Source of the DNA: an uncultured Eubacteriales bacterium
GTDB lineage: Bacteria > Bacillota > Clostridia > Oscillospirales > Acutalibacteraceae
Direction: 5' to 3'
Length of the DNA: 49,882 nucleotides
NCBI GenBank assembly: GCA_900316025.1
Contig: ONBJ01000005.1
Location: forward strand, 1 to 49,882
A program made the position numbers and the translations under genes. Position 1 is the first letter of the stretch, and every line of letters begins with the position of its first letter. Positions 4,756 to 48,036 of the stretch are shown here, piece after piece. Under the pieces are notes generated by a model. The model was not told the origin of the DNA. It searched no databases and was given only the letters and a program-made list of their open reading frames with translations.

Positions 4756-5427
4756 ATGAATTTGATTTTAAAAAAATCGGCGGCATTTTTGTTGGTTTTT
4801 CTGACAATGATGTTTGTTGGTGTAAGCTCAGTATTTGCGGATAACTCCGTGACTATAAGCGGAAATAAGTGCAGCAGCGGCGATACCATTACATATATCT
4901 GTATGATTCAGACTGATAAAAGACTTTCGGGTATAAACGCAACATTAAAATATCCTGCGGCTTCTCTGGAGCTTCAGAAGGATACTGTAAATGTTCCAAA
5001 TCTCGGTATGACTATAGCAAATACAAACGATGAGGGGCAGATAAGATTTATCGGTGTAAATGCTCAGGAGGGATTTGACTTTACCCAAAAAAATCTTCTT
5101 GTATCGGCTACATTCAAGGTTAAAAATGACGCTAAGGACGGAAGTATAGAAATAAACTTTGAGGAAGTTACAGATGTTGAACTTGCTGAAGTGGATATGG
5201 AAAAGCTTGTTGTTGAGGAAACCGTCAAAAAAGGAAGCTATGACGGCACTATTGTAAATCCCGACAGCGGAGATGAATATATAAAAGAAGAGGCTGCTCC
5301 TGTTGATAATAAGAATACGGTAATAATAGTAACAGCCGTTTCAGCAGCGGTTATTATAATTGTGTTATCGGTTATAGTTTCGCTGAAGAGAAAAAAGGAC
5401 GAAAAGGCTGTGAAAGATAAAACATAA
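4756..5427 (+). CDS. Membrane-anchored single-cohesin protein
   Basis: A 223-residue exported protein. Residues 1-28 form a signal peptide (ending SSVFADN), residues about 30-165 form one cohesin-like beta sandwich (SVTISG start, NATLKYP strand, LLVSATFKVK strand), followed by a short acidic linker. A C-terminal transmembrane helix of about 22 hydrophobic residues (VIIVTAVSAAVIIIVLSV, near 190-212) is followed by a Lys-rich cytoplasmic tail. This is the layout of a cell-surface anchoring cohesin held by a membrane helix instead of a sortase link. An AAAAAGGA site lies 12 bases before the ATG. It sits directly downstream of the six-cohesin gene, so the two may work together, the small one as anchor. 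However, the large protein carries no visible dockerin, so direct plugging of one into the other is not supported. The dockerin partner could be the 25.3 kb gene. Confidence 0.8.
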   Translation: MNLILKKSAAFLLVFLTMMFVGVSSVFADNSVTISGNKCSSGDTITYICMIQTDKRLSGINATLKYPAASLELQKDTVNVPNLGMTIANTNDEGQIRFIGVNAQEGFDFTQKNLLVSATFKVKNDAKDGSIEINFEEVTDVELAEVDMEKLVVEETVKKGSYDGTIVNPDSGDEYIKEEAAPVDNKNTVIIVTAVSAAVIIIVLSVIVSLKRKKDEKAVKDKT

Positions 5428-5507
5428 AGTTTAGGTCAAGCCTTTTCAAAGGCTTGCGGGTCGAGGGCAGAGCCCTCGTCAGGATTTTAAAGGGTGAAAC
5501 CCTTTAA
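5423..5507 (+). repeat. Triple-hairpin intergenic repeat, copy A
   Basis: Three perfect hairpins in a row: CAAGCCTTT/AAAGGCTTG (5437-5456), CGAGGGC/GCCCTCG (5462-5478) and TTAAAGGGT/ACCCTTTAA (5487-5507). The leading CATAAAGTTTAGGT block and the TCAGGATTTT linker recur in other copies. The element starts inside the stop codon of the cohesin gene and runs in the same direction. Other copies are at 5607, 13316, 42667 and 43919. Confidence 0.9.
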
Positions 5508-5517
5508 CGGAAAGTTT

Positions 5518-5553: not shown

Positions 5554-5606
5554 AAGTATTTTCAAAAGTGCCTTGAAAAAAAGCATTTTTGTTTTATTAC
5601 GTGTTG

Positions 5607-5694
5607 TTAAAGGGCGTTGCCCTTTAAAATCCCACCAAAGGCTCCGCTTTGGGAAACCGTGAACTTTTTCAAAAGTTCAATCAAAACTTTTATG
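5607..5694 (-). repeat. Triple-hairpin intergenic repeat, copy B (divergent)
   Basis: Minus-orientation copy with arms TTAAAGGGC/GCCCTTTAA (5607-5627), CCAAAG/CTTTGG (5635-5652) and TGAACTTTT/AAAAGTTCA (5660-5679), then a degenerate ATCAAAACTTTTATG tail. The third hairpin differs completely in sequence from the CAAGCCTTT arm of other copies but stays fully paired. It begins 30 bases downstream of the Bax-inhibitor-1 stop codon, in sense orientation. Confidence 0.8.
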
Positions 5695-8556: not shown

Positions 8557-8645
8557 GGCGATTGCAGCCCTGCGGATTCCGCAGGAAAAAGTGCATATGC
8601 ACTTTTTCGACAAAATACGAACGTATTTTGTCGGCTGCAATCGCC
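8557..8645. repeat. Cloverleaf intergenic repeat, copy 1
   Basis: A 13-bp perfect outer stem (GGCGATTGCAGCC at 8557-8569 with 8633-8645) encloses three perfect hairpins: CCTGCGG/CCGCAGG (8569-8585, sharing one base with the outer arm), a 22-base perfect palindrome around GTGCATATGCAC (8586-8607), and GACAAAATACG/CGTATTTTGTC (8609-8632). It lies downstream of glmS on the minus strand and upstream of the DUF1858 promoter. Sister copies are at 31293, 35366 and 47940. Confidence 0.9.
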
Positions 8646-8685: not shown

Positions 8686-8711
8686 GCGAAGCCGTTTTAA
8701 AACGGCTTCGC
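8686..8711 (-). other. Perfect 26-base palindrome downstream of glmS
   Basis: GCGAAGCCGTTTT is followed directly by its reverse complement, 18 bases after the glmS stop codon. No T run follows on either strand, so it is not a standard intrinsic terminator, but it may stop or protect the glmS transcript. Flanking GATTTTGTGG and CCACAAATC can extend the stem with a bulge. Confidence 0.65.
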
Positions 8712-8728
8712 CACAAATCATATAAAAT

Positions 8729-10561
8729 TTATTCAACCGTAACTGATTTTGCAAGATTACGGGGCTTATCAACATCATTACCTCTTTGTACAGCCGCATA
8801 GTAAGCTATGAGCTGCAGGGGAACAGCGGCAGGAATAGGCATAAGAACATCGTCTATTTTAGGTACAGTAATGAGGTAATCATAGGCTTCATGGTCTATT
8901 TTGAAGTCCTCTCTTGCAACAAGAATTACCATAGCTCCTCTTGCTTTTACCTCTTTTATGTTGCTGATAGTTTTTTCAAGAAGCTTTTCCTGAGTAGCAA
9001 CAGCAATTACAGGCATATTATCCGTTATCAGTGAGATAGTACCATGCTTGAGCTCACCTGCGGCATAAGCTTCACTGTGTATGTAAGAAATTTCTTTAAG
9101 CTTGAGAGATCCTTCCATACTTAAAGCATAATCAAGACCTCTTCCTATGTAGAGCAGACTGTCGGCAGCAGCGAGCTTTGTGGCAACAAACTGCGGCATA
9201 GAAAGGTTTTCACTGAGAATTCTATGTATAATTGAGGGAGTAAGTTCAAGATGCTGAGTAAGTGTACAGCACTCTTCCTCAGTTATTTTACCTTTTGCGA
9301 GAGCAAGCTCGAAAGCAAACAGGTACATAACGGAAAGCTGAACGATATAAGCCTTTGTTGAGGCAACAGCTATTTCAGGGCCTGCATGGGTATATATGAG
9401 CATATCTGCCTCTCTTGCGATAGAACTTCCCTTAGCGTTTACGATACCCAACGTTTTAGCACCGAGTTCTTTGGAAAGTCTGAGAGCTGCAAGGCTGTCG
9501 GCGGTTTCGCCCGACTGGGAGATTATTATAACCAAATCACCCTCTTCTACGATGGGTTCTCTGTATCTGAATTCCGAAGCAATATCTACTACAACGGGAA
9601 CTCTTGCAAGCTTTTCAATGACGTATTTGCCGACCATACCGGCGTGCATAGCAGTACCGCAGGCAACAATGAAAATCTTTTTGAAGTCCTTTATCTTATC
9701 AAGTGTAATCTGGCATTCCTCAAGATTGGGCATACCGTTTGATATACGGGGTCTGATAGTAGTGTTGATTGAATCGGGCTGCTCGTGAATTTCCTTTATC
9801 ATAAAGTGAGGATAACCGCCTTTTTTGGCAGCTTCTGCGTCCCAGTCAGCAGTCAGGAGAGTTTTTACTTTTTTATCTCCGTGTTCATCATATATATTAA
9901 CGCCGTCTTTGCTTATCTCAACTATTTCACCGTGTTCAATGAGGTAGTAGTCCTTTGTATAGTTTATAATTGCGGTAACGTCAGAAGCTATGAAAAACTC
10001 GTCCTTACCTACTCCGACTATAAGGGGACTTTCTTTTCTTGCAGCATAAATCATATCGGGGAAATCCTCGAATACAATTCCGAGGGCATAAGAGCCTTCA
10101 AGTCTGGCAACAGTATTTTTTATGGTTTCAAGCGGATTCATAGGGCTTTTCTTATAGTAAAAGCCGAGAAGCTTTGCAACTACCTCAGTATCGGTATCGC
10201 TGAGGAACTTCTGACCCTTTTCAATGAGTAAATCTTTCAGCTCCTTGTAATTCTCGATAATACCGTTATGAACGATAGCAACCTTTTCGCCGCTGTGGGG
10301 GTGAGAGTTTACGTCAGAGGGCTTTCCGTGAGTAGCCCATCTTGTATGACCTATACCTGTAGTACCTTCGGGTTTTCCGTCACTGAGCATTTTATTTCTA
10401 AGGTTGTCAAGTCTGCCCTGAGATTTTTCAACTCTTATATTGCCGTCCTCAAAAACAGCAATTCCGGCGGAGTCATATCCTCTGTATTCAAGCTTTGTTA
10501 GTGCTTCAACAAGCACGTCGCTGCAATCTCTGTATCCGCAGTATCCTACAATTCCACACAT
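8729..10561 (-). CDS. glmS: Glutamine--fructose-6-phosphate aminotransferase (isomerizing)
   Basis: Makes glucosamine-6-phosphate from fructose-6-phosphate and glutamine, the first step to UDP-GlcNAc. The start is the ATG at 10561 (after GGAGG), which places the catalytic Cys directly after the initiator Met (MCGIVGYCG), as required for the Ntn-type glutaminase domain (residues about 1-230, with EYRGYDSAGIAV and TRWATHGKP). Two SIS isomerase domains follow (CGTAMHAG, SQSGETADSL, and YIGRGLDYA, LKLKEISY), ending in the conserved DKPRNLAKSVTVE tail. The 610-residue length fits the family. Only 53 bases separate it from the upstream dehydratase gene, so it is probably cotranscribed from the 12.7 kb promoter; that short gap leaves no room for a glmS ribozyme. 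Confidence 0.97.
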   Translation of the reverse strand: MCGIVGYCGYRDCSDVLVEALTKLEYRGYDSAGIAVFEDGNIRVEKSQGRLDNLRNKMLSDGKPEGTTGIGHTRWATHGKPSDVNSHPHSGEKVAIVHNGIIENYKELKDLLIEKGQKFLSDTDTEVVAKLLGFYYKKSPMNPLETIKNTVARLEGSYALGIVFEDFPDMIYAARKESPLIVGVGKDEFFIASDVTAIINYTKDYYLIEHGEIVEISKDGVNIYDEHGDKKVKTLLTADWDAEAAKKGGYPHFMIKEIHEQPDSINTTIRPRISNGMPNLEECQITLDKIKDFKKIFIVACGTAMHAGMVGKYVIEKLARVPVVVDIASEFRYREPIVEEGDLVIIISQSGETADSLAALRLSKELGAKTLGIVNAKGSSIAREADMLIYTHAGPEIAVASTKAYIVQLSVMYLFAFELALAKGKITEEECCTLTQHLELTPSIIHRILSENLSMPQFVATKLAAADSLLYIGRGLDYALSMEGSLKLKEISYIHSEAYAAGELKHGTISLITDNMPVIAVATQEKLLEKTISNIKEVKARGAMVILVAREDFKIDHEAYDYLITVPKIDDVLMPIPAAVPLQLIAYYAAVQRGNDVDKPRNLAKSVTVE

Positions 10562-10614
10562 AATTTTATCCTCCAAAAAACTAAATATTATACCTGTAAA
10601 TTTCTGTCTAATTA

Positions 10615-13294: not shown

Positions 13295-13315
13295 GTTGCT
13301 TTTAAATAAATTGCG

Positions 13316-13403
13316 TTTAAGGGTTTCACCCTTAAAAATCCTGACCAAAGGCTCTGCCTTTGGAAACCGCAAGCCTTTGAAAAGGCTTGACCTAAACTTT
13401 ATG
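13316..13403 (-). repeat. Triple-hairpin intergenic repeat, copy C (best consensus)
   Basis: Arms TTTAAGGGT/ACCCTTAAA (13316-13336), CCAAAGGC/GCCTTTGG (13345-13363) and CAAGCCTTT/AAAGGCTTG (13370-13389), then the conserved ACCTAAACTTTATG end. On the minus strand it starts two bases after the DUF4956 stop codon, in sense orientation. Confidence 0.9.
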
Positions 13404-30230: not shown

Positions 30231-31280
30231 ATGCCCTTTTGTCAATCTGCATATATTTTTACAAACTATAAAAAGCAGGTGATTAAAACGGTAAAGAAAA
30301 TTTTGAGCATATTGCTCACACTCAGTATTTTAACAGGGATTTTTATTTTGTTTACAGGTCTGTCATCGGACGGTAAAAAAGATTTTATAAGGTATGCAGA
30401 ATTTAACGTATGTTACGAAGCTTTGGAAAAAGCTCTGGATTACGATATAAGCTCTAACAGGAATAATGAAAAGATAAAAATAAACTGGATAGAGGTTCTT
30501 GCGGCTTTGGGAGCAAAGTACGGAGGAGATTTCGGAAAATATAAGGAAAACGATATGACGGAGGTTGTCGAAAGGCTGAAAAACGGAGAAAAAATTGAAG
30601 AAATATGTCAGCAAAAAAGATACTATAATTACTACAAAGAGGTTTACAGTGCAGTACTGGGCGGCTTTACAGGCTGGTATACAGAAGAATGTGAGAATGA
30701 AAATGGAAAAACAGAAAATAATAAGAATTATGGATTGTGCGTATTTTCACCTGTAGCCAAGACCTTTCCTTTTTCTCATTATGATGATTTCGGAGCAGAC
30801 AGAAGCTACGGTTACAAGCGTCCTCATCTGGGACATGATTTGATGGCAGCTACAGGTACTCCTGTTGTGGCTATTGAAACAGGAACAGTCGAGATAATGG
30901 GTTGGAATCAGTACGGCGGCTGGAGAATAGGCATAAGAAGTATGGACAGAAAAAGATATTACTACTATGCACACCTCAGACAGAACAGACCTTTTCACCC
31001 CTATATAAAGGAAGGTAAGGTTGTAAACGCAGGAGACGTTATAGGATACGTCGGAAGAACAGGCTATAGTACTACTGAAAATACAAACAATATAGAAATA
31101 AGCCATCTTCATCTTGGAATGGAACTTGTTTTCGATGAAAGCCAGAAGGAATCGGATAACGAAATATGGATAAATTTATATGCAATAACAAAGCTTCTTG
31201 AAAAGCATAAAAGTACGGTTTACAGATTAGACGAAACAAAGGAGTTTTACAGCAGATACCGTTTCAGAAAAATTGACTGA
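30231..31280 (+). CDS. M23-family peptidase, membrane-anchored
   Basis: Zinc metallopeptidase of the LytM/M23 class, probably acting on peptidoglycan outside the membrane. A single N-terminal helix (ILSILLTLSILTGIFILFTGL) acts as signal or anchor. The catalytic domain (about 180-310) has zinc ligands His199 and Asp203 in HLGHD, the GTPVVAIETG strand, and the His292/His294 pair in SHLHLG; numbering from ATG 30231. All expected catalytic residues are present. Start is uncertain: the ATG at 30231 has no ribosome site and hugs the upstream terminator, while a GTG at 30279 would begin the protein right before the membrane helix but has AGCAGG with no spacer. Sporulation relatives (SpoIIQ type) share this layout, but a sporulation role is not shown. 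Confidence 0.87.
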   Translation: MPFCQSAYIFTNYKKQVIKTVKKILSILLTLSILTGIFILFTGLSSDGKKDFIRYAEFNVCYEALEKALDYDISSNRNNEKIKINWIEVLAALGAKYGGDFGKYKENDMTEVVERLKNGEKIEEICQQKRYYNYYKEVYSAVLGGFTGWYTEECENENGKTENNKNYGLCVFSPVAKTFPFSHYDDFGADRSYGYKRPHLGHDLMAATGTPVVAIETGTVEIMGWNQYGGWRIGIRSMDRKRYYYYAHLRQNRPFHPYIKEGKVVNAGDVIGYVGRTGYSTTENTNNIEISHLHLGMELVFDESQKESDNEIWINLYAITKLLEKHKSTVYRLDETKEFYSRYRFRKID

Positions 31281-31292
31281 TGCTCATACTAA

Positions 31293-31390
31293 GGTGCGAT
31301 TGCAATAACGGCAGCAAAAGCTGCCGTTATCTTTCAAGGGAAACCCTTGAAAGTGGTCAAAAGCAAAGCTTTTGACCGTGCAATCGCACC
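31293..31390. repeat. Cloverleaf intergenic repeat, copy 2
   Basis: Outer stem GGTGCGATTGCA (31293-31304) with its complement at 31379-31390, 12 bp. Inside are three perfect hairpins: ATAACGGCAGC/GCTGCCGTTAT (31305-31330), TTTCAAGGG/CCCTTGAAA (31332-31352) and GGTCAAAAGC/GCTTTTGACC (31355-31377). It starts 12 bases after the peptidase stop codon. The second arm resembles the TTCAAGGGC arm of triple-hairpin copy D, a hint that the two repeat families are related. Confidence 0.9.
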
Positions 31391-35365: not shown

Positions 35366-35487
35366 GGCTTTGTGCGTGGCTGCGGCGATTGCCAGTCAGA
35401 ATACAAGTATTCTGACATAAAATTGCTTTGCAATTTTATCCTCGTGTATTACACGAGGTGGCAATCGCCGCAGCCACGCACAAAGCC
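35366..35487. repeat. Cloverleaf intergenic repeat, copy 3 (longest stem)
   Basis: The outer stem is 28 bp without a mismatch (35366-35393 with 35460-35487), core GCGGCGATTGCC. Inside are three perfect hairpins separated by single bases: GTCAGAATAC/GTATTCTGAC (35395-35416), TAAAATTGC/GCAATTTTA (35418-35438) and CCTCGTGT/ACACGAGG (35440-35458). No T run follows, so it is not a normal terminator. The unpaired bases in the whole 122-base element number only about ten. Confidence 0.92.
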
Positions 35488-42634: not shown

Positions 42635-42666
42635 TGAAAACTGCTGAAAGTCTGCGGAAACAAAAC

Positions 42667-42753
42667 CATAAAGTTTAGGTCAAGCCTTTTTAAAGGCTTG
42701 CGGTTTCCAAAGGCGGAGCCTTTGGCGGGATTTTCAAGGGCAGAGCCCTTGAA
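42667..42753 (+). repeat. Triple-hairpin intergenic repeat, copy D
   Basis: Arms CAAGCCTTT/AAAGGCTTG (42681-42700), CCAAAGGC/GCCTTTGG (42707-42725) and TTCAAGGGC/GCCCTTGAA (42733-42753). It lies 32 bases after the pyruvyl-transferase fusion and 22 bases before the next gene. Its first 34 bases are exactly repeated, inverted, at 43970-44003. Confidence 0.92.
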
Positions 42754-42774
42754 CACAACACAGGAGAGGTTAGC

Positions 42775-43923
42775 TTGAAAGTATTTATTGTGTCAAGAGG
42801 TTATCCCTCAGATAAGTATGTTACAAACGGAATATTTGAGTTCGACCAGGCTAAGGCTCTTGCTGAAGCAGGTCATCAGGTTGTATTTTTAGCTGTGGAT
42901 TTAAGGTCAATACGCAGAAAAAGAAAGTTCGGCAGGGAAAGCTTTGAAAAAGACGGTGTTCTTGTTGAAGCCGTAAACGTTCCGTGCGGAAAAATACCGC
43001 AGGGACTGCTCAGAACTGTAAGAAAAATTTCGCTGAAAAAGCTTTATAATAGCTGTGAGAAAAAATACGGAAAACCTGATATTATACACTCTCACTTTTT
43101 GGAAATAAGCTATACCGCTGCACAGGTGCTTTCAGAAAAAAATATACCTATGGTTATGACCGAACATCTTTCGGCACTGAATAATAAAGTAATTTCTCAG
43201 AAGCTTATAGATACAGGAAAAAATACCTACCGCTTCTATGACAAGGTTATTACCGTAGGCGATAACCTTGCAAAAAGCCTTGAAAAAAATTTCGGGGTAA
43301 GTTCTGTAACAATTCCGAATGTAGCGGATACCCAAACATTTTCGCTGAATTTGAACGGCAAAAAAATAGCTGAAAGTTCTGAAAAGGATAATTTCAGAAT
43401 AATTTCGGTAGGTTCGCTCATTAAAAGAAAAAATATGGATTTATTAATAAAAGCTTTTGCAAGACTGCACAGTATAAAACCTGATTCATACCTTGATATC
43501 TACGGAAAAGGTGTTGAAAAGGAAAATTTGCAGGAGCTTATAAACAAATATGATTTAACGTCCTTTGTAACGCTTCACGGAGCTAAAAGCCGAAAGGAAA
43601 TAGCCGAAAAAATGGCACAGGCTGATTTCTTTGCCCTTGCATCAAGCGTGGAAACATTCGGCGTTGTATATATAGAGGCATTGTCGGCAGGTCTGCCTGT
43701 TGTAGCGGCAATAAGCGGAGGCCCTGAAAATTTCGTGGACAAAAGCAACGGAATTTTAGTTGAAGCCGATAATGAGGACAAATTCTTTGAAGCTTTGCTT
43801 AAAATGTCGGAAATCTTCGGCGGCTATGACAGAAAGGCAATAAGCGAAAATATAGCCAAAACTTATTCTCCGTGTGCCGTTGCCGAAAAGCTTACGGCAC
43901 TGTATAAAGAAATTTCCGTTTAA
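42775..43923 (+). CDS. Glycosyltransferase family 4, bracketed by inverted repeats
   Basis: A 382-residue GT-B enzyme, opening with KVFIVSRGYPSDKYVTNGIF; donor domain features are IISVGSLIKRKNMDLLIKAF and the SSVETFGVVYIEALSAGLPVV signature (quoted in part: FGVVYIEALSAGLPVV). The start is TTG (Met) five bases after AGGAGAGG. It is the only gene of the locus with a repeat on each side: copy D upstream and copy E, inverted, starting within its stop codon region. The donor and acceptor are unknown. Base use looks like its neighbours, so recent foreign origin is not indicated. Confidence 0.92.
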   Translation: MKVFIVSRGYPSDKYVTNGIFEFDQAKALAEAGHQVVFLAVDLRSIRRKRKFGRESFEKDGVLVEAVNVPCGKIPQGLLRTVRKISLKKLYNSCEKKYGKPDIIHSHFLEISYTAAQVLSEKNIPMVMTEHLSALNNKVISQKLIDTGKNTYRFYDKVITVGDNLAKSLEKNFGVSSVTIPNVADTQTFSLNLNGKKIAESSEKDNFRIISVGSLIKRKNMDLLIKAFARLHSIKPDSYLDIYGKGVEKENLQELINKYDLTSFVTLHGAKSRKEIAEKMAQADFFALASSVETFGVVYIEALSAGLPVVAAISGGPENFVDKSNGILVEADNEDKFFEALLKMSEIFGGYDRKAISENIAKTYSPCAVAEKLTALYKEISV

Positions 43924-44003
43924 GGGTTTCACCCTCAAAAATCTTGACGAGGGCTTTGCCCTCGACCCACAAGCCTTTAAAAAGGCTTGACCTAAACTTT
44001 ATG
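43919..44003 (-). repeat. Triple-hairpin intergenic repeat, copy E
   Basis: Arms TTTAAGGGT/ACCCTCAAA with one mismatch (43919-43939), CGAGGGC/GCCCTCG (43949-43965 region) and CAAGCCTTT/AAAGGCTTG (43970-43989), then ACCTAAACTTTATG. It overlaps the stop codon of the glycosyltransferase at 43921-43923 and, unlike copies A-D, runs antisense to that gene. It forms an inverted pair with copy D. Confidence 0.9.
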
Positions 44004-44049
44004 TTTTTTCTTCCGAACATAAGCAGAAAATACGCAGGGAGGTATGATA

Positions 44050-46484: not shown

Positions 46485-47900
46485 ATGGGACGAGGGGAAA
46501 AGCTGGTAAAGAATACTTTTATTCTTGCAATAGGTAATTTTCTGCCAAGAGTGGCAACGTTTTTTGTTCTGCCTATTCTGACGGAATACCTTACAAAAGA
46601 AGAGTACGGAACATATGACCTTATAACAGTTCTCGTATCGCTGCTGCTTCCTGCCGTAACCCTGCAGATACAGACGGCAGCTTTCAGATTTCTTATAGAA
46701 CACAGAGGAAACAGGGAGCAGGAAAGCAGAATTGTTACAAATATATATGCTTTTACGATTCCCACATCACTGATAGCACTGATTGTTCTTTATTTCTGTC
46801 TTTTCAAGGTCGAACCGCTCGAAAGAATACTTATATGTATATACTTCATAATGGATATACTTGTTGCTACGGCAACTCAGGTTGTAAGAGGTCTTGCCAA
46901 AAACAAGGAGTATTCCGTAAGTGCGATACTGGGTGCAGCAGGAAGATTGATTTTTGCTGTAGTGTTTGTATGGATTTTACGCTGCGGACTTGTCGGTGCA
47001 ACGCTTTGTCTGATTGCCGCTACGGGTATACAGGCATTTTTCATATTCTTAAAAGCAGACCTTTTGACTATGATAAGACCCTCGCTTATAGATAAGAAAA
47101 CAATCAAGGAACTTCTTGCCTATTCGTGGCCTATGGTTCCTAACAGTATGTCGCTGTGGGTAATGCGTGTTTCGGACAGAATTGTCGTTACCGCCTTTAT
47201 GGGGCCTGTTGCAAATGCAGTATATTCTGTTGCAAATAAAATACCCTCACTTCTTACAATAGCTCAGACTACATTCAATATGGCATGGCAGGAAAATGCC
47301 TCTATGGTATCCAAAGATGAGGACGCTCCGAGATATTATACGGTTATGTTCGGGGCTGTATTTGATTTTATGGCAGGCGTGTTCGGTCTGCTTATTGCAA
47401 CTACCCCTATACTTTTTGCTCTGCTCGTAAGGGGAGATTATGACGAAGCCTACTATCAGATGCCTATACTGTTTATGGGTATGTTCTTTTTCAGTATAAC
47501 AGGATACCTCGGCGGTGTTTATGTGGCTTACAAGCAGACTTTCAGTCTGGGTATTACCACTACACTTGCCGCTGTCTGCAATCTTGTTATTGATATATCA
47601 ACTATAAGTTTTATACATCTCTATGCGGCTTCGCTTTCAACTCTTATAAGTTATATTCTTCTGTGTACATACAGAATGATTAACGTAAGAAAATTTGTGG
47701 AGATTAAATATGACCTGAAAAGGATTTTTATAATTATAGCTATACTTGCCGTTATGAGCGGAATCAGCTATATTCATACGTTCTGGTTTGATGTTATAAA
47801 TTTTGTGCTTGGTGTTTTCCTGTTCGTTTTCTTTAACGGAAAGGTTATGATGGGACTTGTAAACAAACTGCTGAAGAAAAAAGGAAAACAGGCAAAGTGA
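46485..47900 (+). CDS. Polysaccharide flippase (Wzx, MOP superfamily)
   Basis: A 471-residue membrane protein with about 12-14 helices. It opens with LVKNTFILAIGNFLPRVATFFVLPILTEYL (quoted in part: FLPRVATFFVLPILTEYL), the conserved first helix of lipopolysaccharide/teichoic acid flippases, and carries the YSWPMVPNSMSLWVM segment near 210. It would flip undecaprenyl-linked repeat units to the outside for the ligase/polymerase. Start: ATG after TTGAGGT. Last gene of the locus; a cloverleaf repeat follows 39 bases after the stop. Confidence 0.93.
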   Translation: MGRGEKLVKNTFILAIGNFLPRVATFFVLPILTEYLTKEEYGTYDLITVLVSLLLPAVTLQIQTAAFRFLIEHRGNREQESRIVTNIYAFTIPTSLIALIVLYFCLFKVEPLERILICIYFIMDILVATATQVVRGLAKNKEYSVSAILGAAGRLIFAVVFVWILRCGLVGATLCLIAATGIQAFFIFLKADLLTMIRPSLIDKKTIKELLAYSWPMVPNSMSLWVMRVSDRIVVTAFMGPVANAVYSVANKIPSLLTIAQTTFNMAWQENASMVSKDEDAPRYYTVMFGAVFDFMAGVFGLLIATTPILFALLVRGDYDEAYYQMPILFMGMFFFSITGYLGGVYVAYKQTFSLGITTTLAAVCNLVIDISTISFIHLYAASLSTLISYILLCTYRMINVRKFVEIKYDLKRIFIIIAILAVMSGISYIHTFWFDVINFVLGVFLFVFFNGKVMMGLVNKLLKKKGKQAK

Positions 47901-47939: not shown

Positions 47940-48036
47940 GCGGCGATTGCCGATAATAAGCCGCAGGCTTATTATCGCAAAAAAGGCTATGCCTTTTTTG
48001 GTTTGCGGATAAATCCGCAAACGTGGCAATCGCCGC
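47940..48036. repeat. Cloverleaf intergenic repeat, copy 4
   Basis: Outer stem GCGGCGATTGCC (47940-47951) with GGCAATCGCCGC (48025-48036). Inside: GATAATAAGCC/GGCTTATTATC (47952-47976), AAAAAAGGC/GCCTTTTTT (47979-47999) and GTTTGCGGAT/ATCCGCAAAC (48001-48022), all perfect. A separate small hairpin CTGAGC/GCTCAG (47921-47936) precedes it. It separates the flippase from the ileS promoter. Confidence 0.9.

Follow-up and report, generated by a model that had tools for sequence, protein, structure and literature searches.

The described bacterial repeats that work most like the elements reported here are the REPINs (Bertels and Rainey, 2011; PMC3116915), which are extragenic, reach about a hundred copies or more, carry compensatory changes and are REP doublets, associated with RAYT transposases, in which two conserved ends in inverted orientation flank a variable spacer and both the length and the folding of this spacer matter; a supplementary legend in the same paper proposes a 'clover' fold. 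Rickettsia palindromic elements, RU-3 and NEMIS (PMC2229807) are likewise dispersed repeats of 100-150 bp with stem-loops, but these stem-loops are long and the consulted portion of that source describes no three-arm junction. Among the matches listed in a literature search for a three-arm bacterial repeat, none was found by title and abstract opening.

Fungal mitochondria carry double-hairpin elements that are likewise repetitive and hairpin-forming. The RHE of sponge mitochondria (PMC2800124) resemble the present family in being scattered, hairpin-based and intergenic, with several invasions, but they are mitochondrial and their abstract mentions no closing stem with three arms. Hairpin maintenance by template switching (Monttinen and Loytynoja, 2022, PMC8794818; Abraham and Hazkani-Covo, 2021, PMC8604942) shares with it paired changes and inverted spacers; those studies, however, deal with the way mutations arise in rRNA and in yeast genes. 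Its footprint is arm matching together with spacer inversion (PMC8604942; PMC8794818; PMC7202029). A survey of perfect inverted repeats (PMC13155455) does not contain the words cloverleaf, compensatory, SbcCD or Clostridi in its main text.

Here, we describe a family of cloverleaf repeats in the genome of an uncultured Eubacteriales bacterium of the Acutalibacteraceae (assembly GCA_900316025.1) and in its sister species. The window referred to below is the whole stretch of 49,882 nt analysed from contig ONBJ01000005.1.

Results

A preliminary description had placed four intergenic elements in the window, each with a closing stem enclosing three hairpins, and all four were confirmed, at 8557-8645, 31293-31390, 35366-35487 and 47940-48036. 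Folding of the single-stranded DNA gave the closing stem and three hairpins in every case, with MFE z-scores of -11.6, -16.4, -18.9 and -10.9, respectively, and as good a fold in 0/200 shuffles, while a finder relying on structure only recovered 4/4 elements plus one two-arm match. The element first flagged (35366-35487; no strand is assigned to any element or arm) is closed by a perfect stem of 29 bp (35366-35394 / 35459-35487) that holds the core, GCGATTGC at 35385-35392 and GCAATCGC at 35461-35468. Its three arms, at 35395-35416, 35417-35439 and 35440-35458, are perfect stems of 9, 10 and 8 bp with loops of 4, 3 and 3 nt. The position of all four 3' of a gene was also borne out, as were the gene names, by Pfam: the element at 8557-8645 lies 3' of a glmS-like ORF (8729-10576, minus strand; SIS and GATase), that at 31293-31390 3' of an M23 peptidase ORF (30231-31280; Peptidase_M23), the flagged one 3' of a DHHW ORF (DHHW) and that at 47940-48036 3' of a flippase-like ORF (46485-47900; Polysacc_synt). 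A known RNA family was rejected, as an Rfam search of the window at gathering score gave a single tRNA and no match to the cloverleaf elements. A perfect 13-bp palindrome (8686-8711) lies near the element at 8557-8645.

The window also holds a second high-copy repeat (42665-42754, 13315-13403, 5606-5690, 5423-5508 and 43918-44015), made of hairpins in a row whose number varies and whose sequence is mostly conserved; the fetched stretches contain it, near-full, at 135 distinct places, 79 in this genome and 56 in the sister, and similar hairpins stand at a contig end of another genome (G002).

The cloverleaf family is confirmed as real and larger than first reported. Four copies only was the outcome named beforehand as speaking against it; the pattern GCGATTGC-N60..90-GCAATCGC occurs at 156 places in this genome (2,084,495 b in 98 contigs, 100% complete) and at 165 in the sister species (90% complete), each place being listed on both strands because the pattern reads identically on the opposite strand, and the reversed control pattern occurs at 0 places in this genome. 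The structure-only finder, which demands a perfect outer stem and perfect arms of at least 7 bp each, permits up to six arms and has no sequence rule, was run on about half of each genome and gave 97 three-arm matches and one two-arm match in 1,083,635 b of this genome and again 97 and one in 929,449 b of the sister, with 17 and 12 further copies, respectively, recognised by core sequence. Markov-1 controls equal to three copies of our own sequence (3,250,905 b) yielded a single two-arm match and not one with three arms, and no four-arm structure was found in the stretches of either species, although the finder permitted them. With the compensated arms and 3' positions reported below, the predicted genome-wide family of dozens of copies is thus present.

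Beyond these two species the distribution is patchy, two of six genomes of the genus and one of another genus being rich. A first scan for the core pattern in 40 genomes, our own included, gave the 165 places of the sister, one in the congener G003 and none in the other 37. That one G003 copy (L017 1500-1584) is a genuine cloverleaf and shares the core, in a genome listed with 7% contamination. Stretches totalling 259,674 b from the four remaining members of the genus held no three-arm structure, and a covariance model (R2, used in place of a first model, R1, that had left arm 1 unpaired, perhaps from misalignment) gave no match in the whole genomes of the four congeners, though it also missed the true G003 copy. 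Over 120 genomes of the family, R2 matched our own genome, a member of another genus (G111) and, weakly, G092, at a place that does not look like a clean cloverleaf. G111 has 36 matches in 1.6 Mb, both strands counted; 25/25 distinct fetched places are three simple hairpins on one stem, closed by, for example, GGGCGAAAGCCC or GGCGGCAAGCC and not by GCGATTGCAG. Their arms hold 676 Watson-Crick and 2 G-T pairs, a rate that is not independent since a pairing-rewarding model picked the copies. Seven congeners of G111 gave no R2 match, and a scan over the order (394 genomes) and class (391) matched our own genome only, a weak negative as it concerns the best 10 candidates scored per genome. Spread to other named organisms was rejected: at least 10 stray matches to the core pattern outside the sister's assembly include no cloverleaf by the finder. 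Nor is a 48-nt core pair (L129) a cloverleaf.

The whole repeat measures about 120-140 bp and its core about 85-105 bp. Of 223 elements taken from the two species, 212 with core ends were parsed and 11 without core were dropped. Stems are of 9-11 bp in 531/636 arms and loops of 3 or 4 nt in 604/636, and 114/212 elements form a perfect four-way junction with no unpaired junction base. Aligned with the A-rich arm first, 42 copies show arm classes in a fixed order, A-rich (..CAAAAGC), middle (..TTCAAGC) and G+C-rich (..CGGCAGC or TTTCGGAC), while the outer 20 nt on each side follow a loose inverted-repeat, TIR-like consensus. The proposal that no arm is common to copies therefore holds for the twelve arms of the window, which all differ, but not genome-wide, where the arms belong to homologous classes.

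Pairing within the arms is close to complete. Perfect arms number 595/636 in the 212 parsed elements, so that full pairing describes most arms rather than every one, and other copies do not have the unpaired or random inner arms that would have spoken against the family: Watson-Crick pairs make up 6368/6417 (99.2%), and the mismatches are A-C 17, C-T 11, G-T 10 and others 11. As a control, 105 T-run hairpins outside elements and ORFs of the same genome, found by a finder that tolerates two mismatches, gave 77/1244 non-Watson-Crick pairs (G-T 38, A-C 21); G-T is thus about twenty times rarer in the cloverleafs. On the sense strand between tandem genes, G-T and A-C account for 10 and 7 of 4390 arm pairs, a G-T share of 0.23% against 3.05% in terminators and a ratio of the two not clearly unlike that of terminators, which means that the rarity covers all mismatches and not G-T alone. 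Sense-strand loops have no clear strand preference overall (203 purine-majority vs 172 pyrimidine-majority, p 0.12), and some of them favour the purine form (AAA 53 vs TTT 38, GAA 21 vs TTC 8).

Comparison with the sister species supported template switching, already proposed in the preliminary description, as the source of arm change. Of our 114 elements, 54 had both flanks mapped in the fetched sister part and 44 pairs were parsed in both species; arms were compared from the tip outwards in the best of five registers, and one of 132 was skipped as too different. Among 1298 orthologous base pairs, 76 had changed on both sides and were still paired, 14 had changed on one side and 3 otherwise, while a stricter count of equal-length arms gave 21 paired against 10 one-sided changes over 715 pairs. 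Orthologous terminators (n=30) had 23 paired, 36 one-sided and 10 other changes, and the contrast of 76:14 with 23:36 is significant (Fisher p 1.5e-8). Transversions made up 41/76 paired changes against 1038/2655 single changes in the flanks (p 0.012). A route through G-U would favour transitions; paired changes in terminators are likewise often transversions (11/23), so the sign is not peculiar to the cloverleaf family. Moreover, 12/58 differing equal-length loops are exact reverse complements of each other, against a permutation expectation of mean 4.1 and maximum 10 (n=2000). The arm matching and spacer inversion that mark a template-switch (quasipalindrome) target are thus both found between close relatives, and that arm re-matching and loop inversion arise by template switching is well supported by this comparison of two species. 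Inverted loops are common here, whereas compensation plus loop inversion is very rare in the rRNA data as reported (PMC8794818).

The arms do not change freely, contrary to the initial view. In the 44 pairs, divergence was 0.029 in the closing stem, 0.085 in arm stems and 0.345 in loops, compared with 0.216 in the outer 20 nt, 0.205 in intergenic sequence beyond, 0.233 at codon position three and 0.054 at position two, and in arms with equal loops the six loop-adjoining pairs diverge by 1-5% and the outer pairs by 7-17%. The closing-stem value is favoured by the selection of copies, for which the core was required, a bias bounded by the partner counts. Of 51 core-bearing elements that map in the sister, 44 have a partner with core and seven no detected partner; by eye, these seven comprise one element with intact core ends, one half remnant and five sites with no recognisable element. 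In the reverse direction, 43/49 partners have the core, one lacks the exact core and five were not detected. If copying from arm to arm were the only process, stem divergence should come close to the neutral rate; we therefore argue that something also removes changes, and the closing stem and the fold look as if selected in place. Gene conversion between copies is disfavoured as the cause of closing-stem conservation, as two loci (L113/L074 and L100/L133) keep their own unusual stem in both species. In a 2026 survey of 118,019 genomes, perfect inverted repeats are reported to have more spacer substitutions and conserved arms, above all near terminators (PMC13155455), and the contrast between loops and arms is therefore not peculiar to the cloverleaf family.

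Copies at shared sites spread before the two species split. Among 109 elements of this genome, identity to the nearest paralogue ranges from 65% to slightly below 95%, with a median of 83%, compared with a median identity of 90.5% for orthologues, from which it follows that the shared copies predate the split, and no near-identical recent copy (all below 95%) occurs among the 109. A partner was not detected for 7/54 elements of this genome and 5/51 of the sister; one partnerless site does in fact bear an element, while half of one is left at two sites or more, which shows that losses occur. The empty sites, examined by eye for target-site duplications, are too diverged or are remnants, and none was recognised as a fresh insertion. 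The Y1 transposase (PF01797; RAYT, IS200/IS605 TnpA) has no match in either rich species of the genus, and a REP/RAYT or IS200 mobiliser was therefore rejected. A mobile non-autonomous element, one of the roles first suggested, thus fits the dispersal and patchy distribution but not the lack of recent copies and of this transposase.

Most copies stand just 3' of genes. With ORFs called by a simple longest-first rule, 145 of 212 elements lie between tandem, 30 between convergent and 13 between divergent genes, 11 at edges and 13 inside an ORF of at least 80 aa, which may be spurious. Among gaps of at least 150 nt, divergent pairs account for 9/168 with an element against 117/431 without (p 1.7e-10). 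The core follows the end of an upstream gene at a median distance of 39 nt, and the A-rich arm comes first in the sense direction in 72/108 elements (72:36). The noted absence of a T run extends to the family: a T-rich octamer follows within 45 nt in 52/145 elements against 105/257 random tandem intergenic places, which is no excess, and a T run within 14 nt in 2/145. At one site (L134 13116-13208) the sister has a cloverleaf and our own genome an ordinary-looking hairpin terminator (L036 ~10487; read by eye). A prophage (L034 8357-20000) with terminase, capsid and baseplate J matches has three cloverleaf elements between phage ORFs. The IMG/VR contig L262 is 99.7% identical to this prophage region and was the sole viral contig found, and a phage origin was rejected.

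TIGR00619, the model for SbcD, finds nothing in the two rich species and scores over the cut-off in 4/4 other genomes of the genus, G003 with its one copy included. We predicted beforehand that G111 would lack SbcD and that its congeners would mostly have it; G111 lacks TIGR00619 and 4/7 congeners have it. Absence of SbcD is common, the model being over the cut-off in 14/38 genomes in total and below it or absent in 21/35 other than the rich ones, and the two sister species count as one event. SbcCD is chiefly known for repeats far longer than these cloverleafs. In E. coli it cuts hairpins and cruciforms (PMC9180970). The correlation, which concerns SbcD only, is suggestive but not proof that loss of this hairpin nuclease may let genomes keep such elements. 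That the permissive change was a loss of exonuclease VII was rejected, PF02601 being present in both rich species.

Discussion

The cloverleaf family is real, high-copy and of an uncommon plan: its single-strand fold is a near-perfect four-way junction with a conserved closing stem and three short hairpins. It shares with REPINs the conserved inverted ends around a folding spacer, the high copy number and the extragenic location, and works most like a REPIN, but it differs in its constant three hairpins, each near-perfectly paired with loops of 3-4 nt, and in the two rich genomes of the genus being without a RAYT/Y1 transposase. Because this defining transposase was sought and not found, we do not file the family as a REPIN.

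The reading we prefer, tentatively and with somewhat more doubt than conviction, is that of a REPIN-like dispersed element of long standing, apparently no longer mobile, that is maintained at gene ends as a structured site and probably acts as DNA. Its hairpins, as the paired transversions and inverted loops strongly indicate, would be re-matched by template switching during DNA replication, with loops inverted on the way, while the divergence rates indicate that selection may hold the closing stem and the fold as well as, in each arm, the half nearer the tip. We infer that the selected object would be the folded DNA, or both strands, in which G-T pairs, though tolerated by RNA, hardly occur; this object could be a site for a putative protein that reads the closing stem at the junction, and would then resemble the supposed working of REPIN/BIME repeats. 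Folded DNA is only slightly preferred over RNA as the selected object, as the position 3' of genes and the orientation bias suit an RNA role at least equally.

An RNA element at mRNA ends, where the cloverleaf would block 3'-to-5' exonucleases or guide processing in the manner of stabilising REP hairpins, is accordingly the rival we take most seriously, although we consider it rather unlikely. Template switching would then supply the paired changes and selection on the mRNA keep the fold, and the short distance from the upstream stop, the depletion between divergent genes, the A-rich arm leading in the sense direction, the constraint on the stems in place and the partial purine leaning of sense loops all agree with it. 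The case against it is the near absence of every mismatch, rather than the G-T ratio, to which the want of a clear strand preference in the loops overall and the three copies between prophage ORFs may be added. Improbable, in our view, is a purely selfish, non-autonomous MITE-like element with no host role, its arms kept perfect by template switching alone: high copy number, dispersal, patchy distribution, prophage copies and the roughly 20 nt outside the core that are loosely TIR-like would suit such an element, but those 20 nt now diverge like background, the in-place constraint on closing stem and arms is unexpected from arm-to-arm copying alone, and neither near-identical copies nor a Y1 transposase nor a fresh insertion was found, the empty sites including half remnants that speak of losses. 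That the elements are unusually elaborate intrinsic terminators we regard as very improbable, since the missing T run largely contradicts it, even though they are strong hairpins 3' of genes and an ordinary-looking terminator stands at one corresponding site.

The family carries a warning for the use of covariation, by which RNA structure is usually proved: it can appear where G-U pairs are nearly missing and loops are inverted, signs that point to DNA-level events. The family also makes several questions accessible by sequence: whether template switching alone can keep hairpins perfect, where the rates reported above point to a need for selection as well; how selection on a fold at the DNA level can be separated from that at the RNA level; and whether loss of SbcCD opens genomes to structured repeats. 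With orthologous copies in sister species, it constitutes a natural experiment: at many sites a nucleic-acid shape persists as its sequence drifts. More generally, though we consider this doubtful as yet, bacteria without SbcCD may be able to evolve functional DNA cloverleafs at gene ends, in which the fold is inherited while the sequence is not, being renewed by template switching, and of which two genera would have reached one three-arm plan, each with a closing stem of its own.
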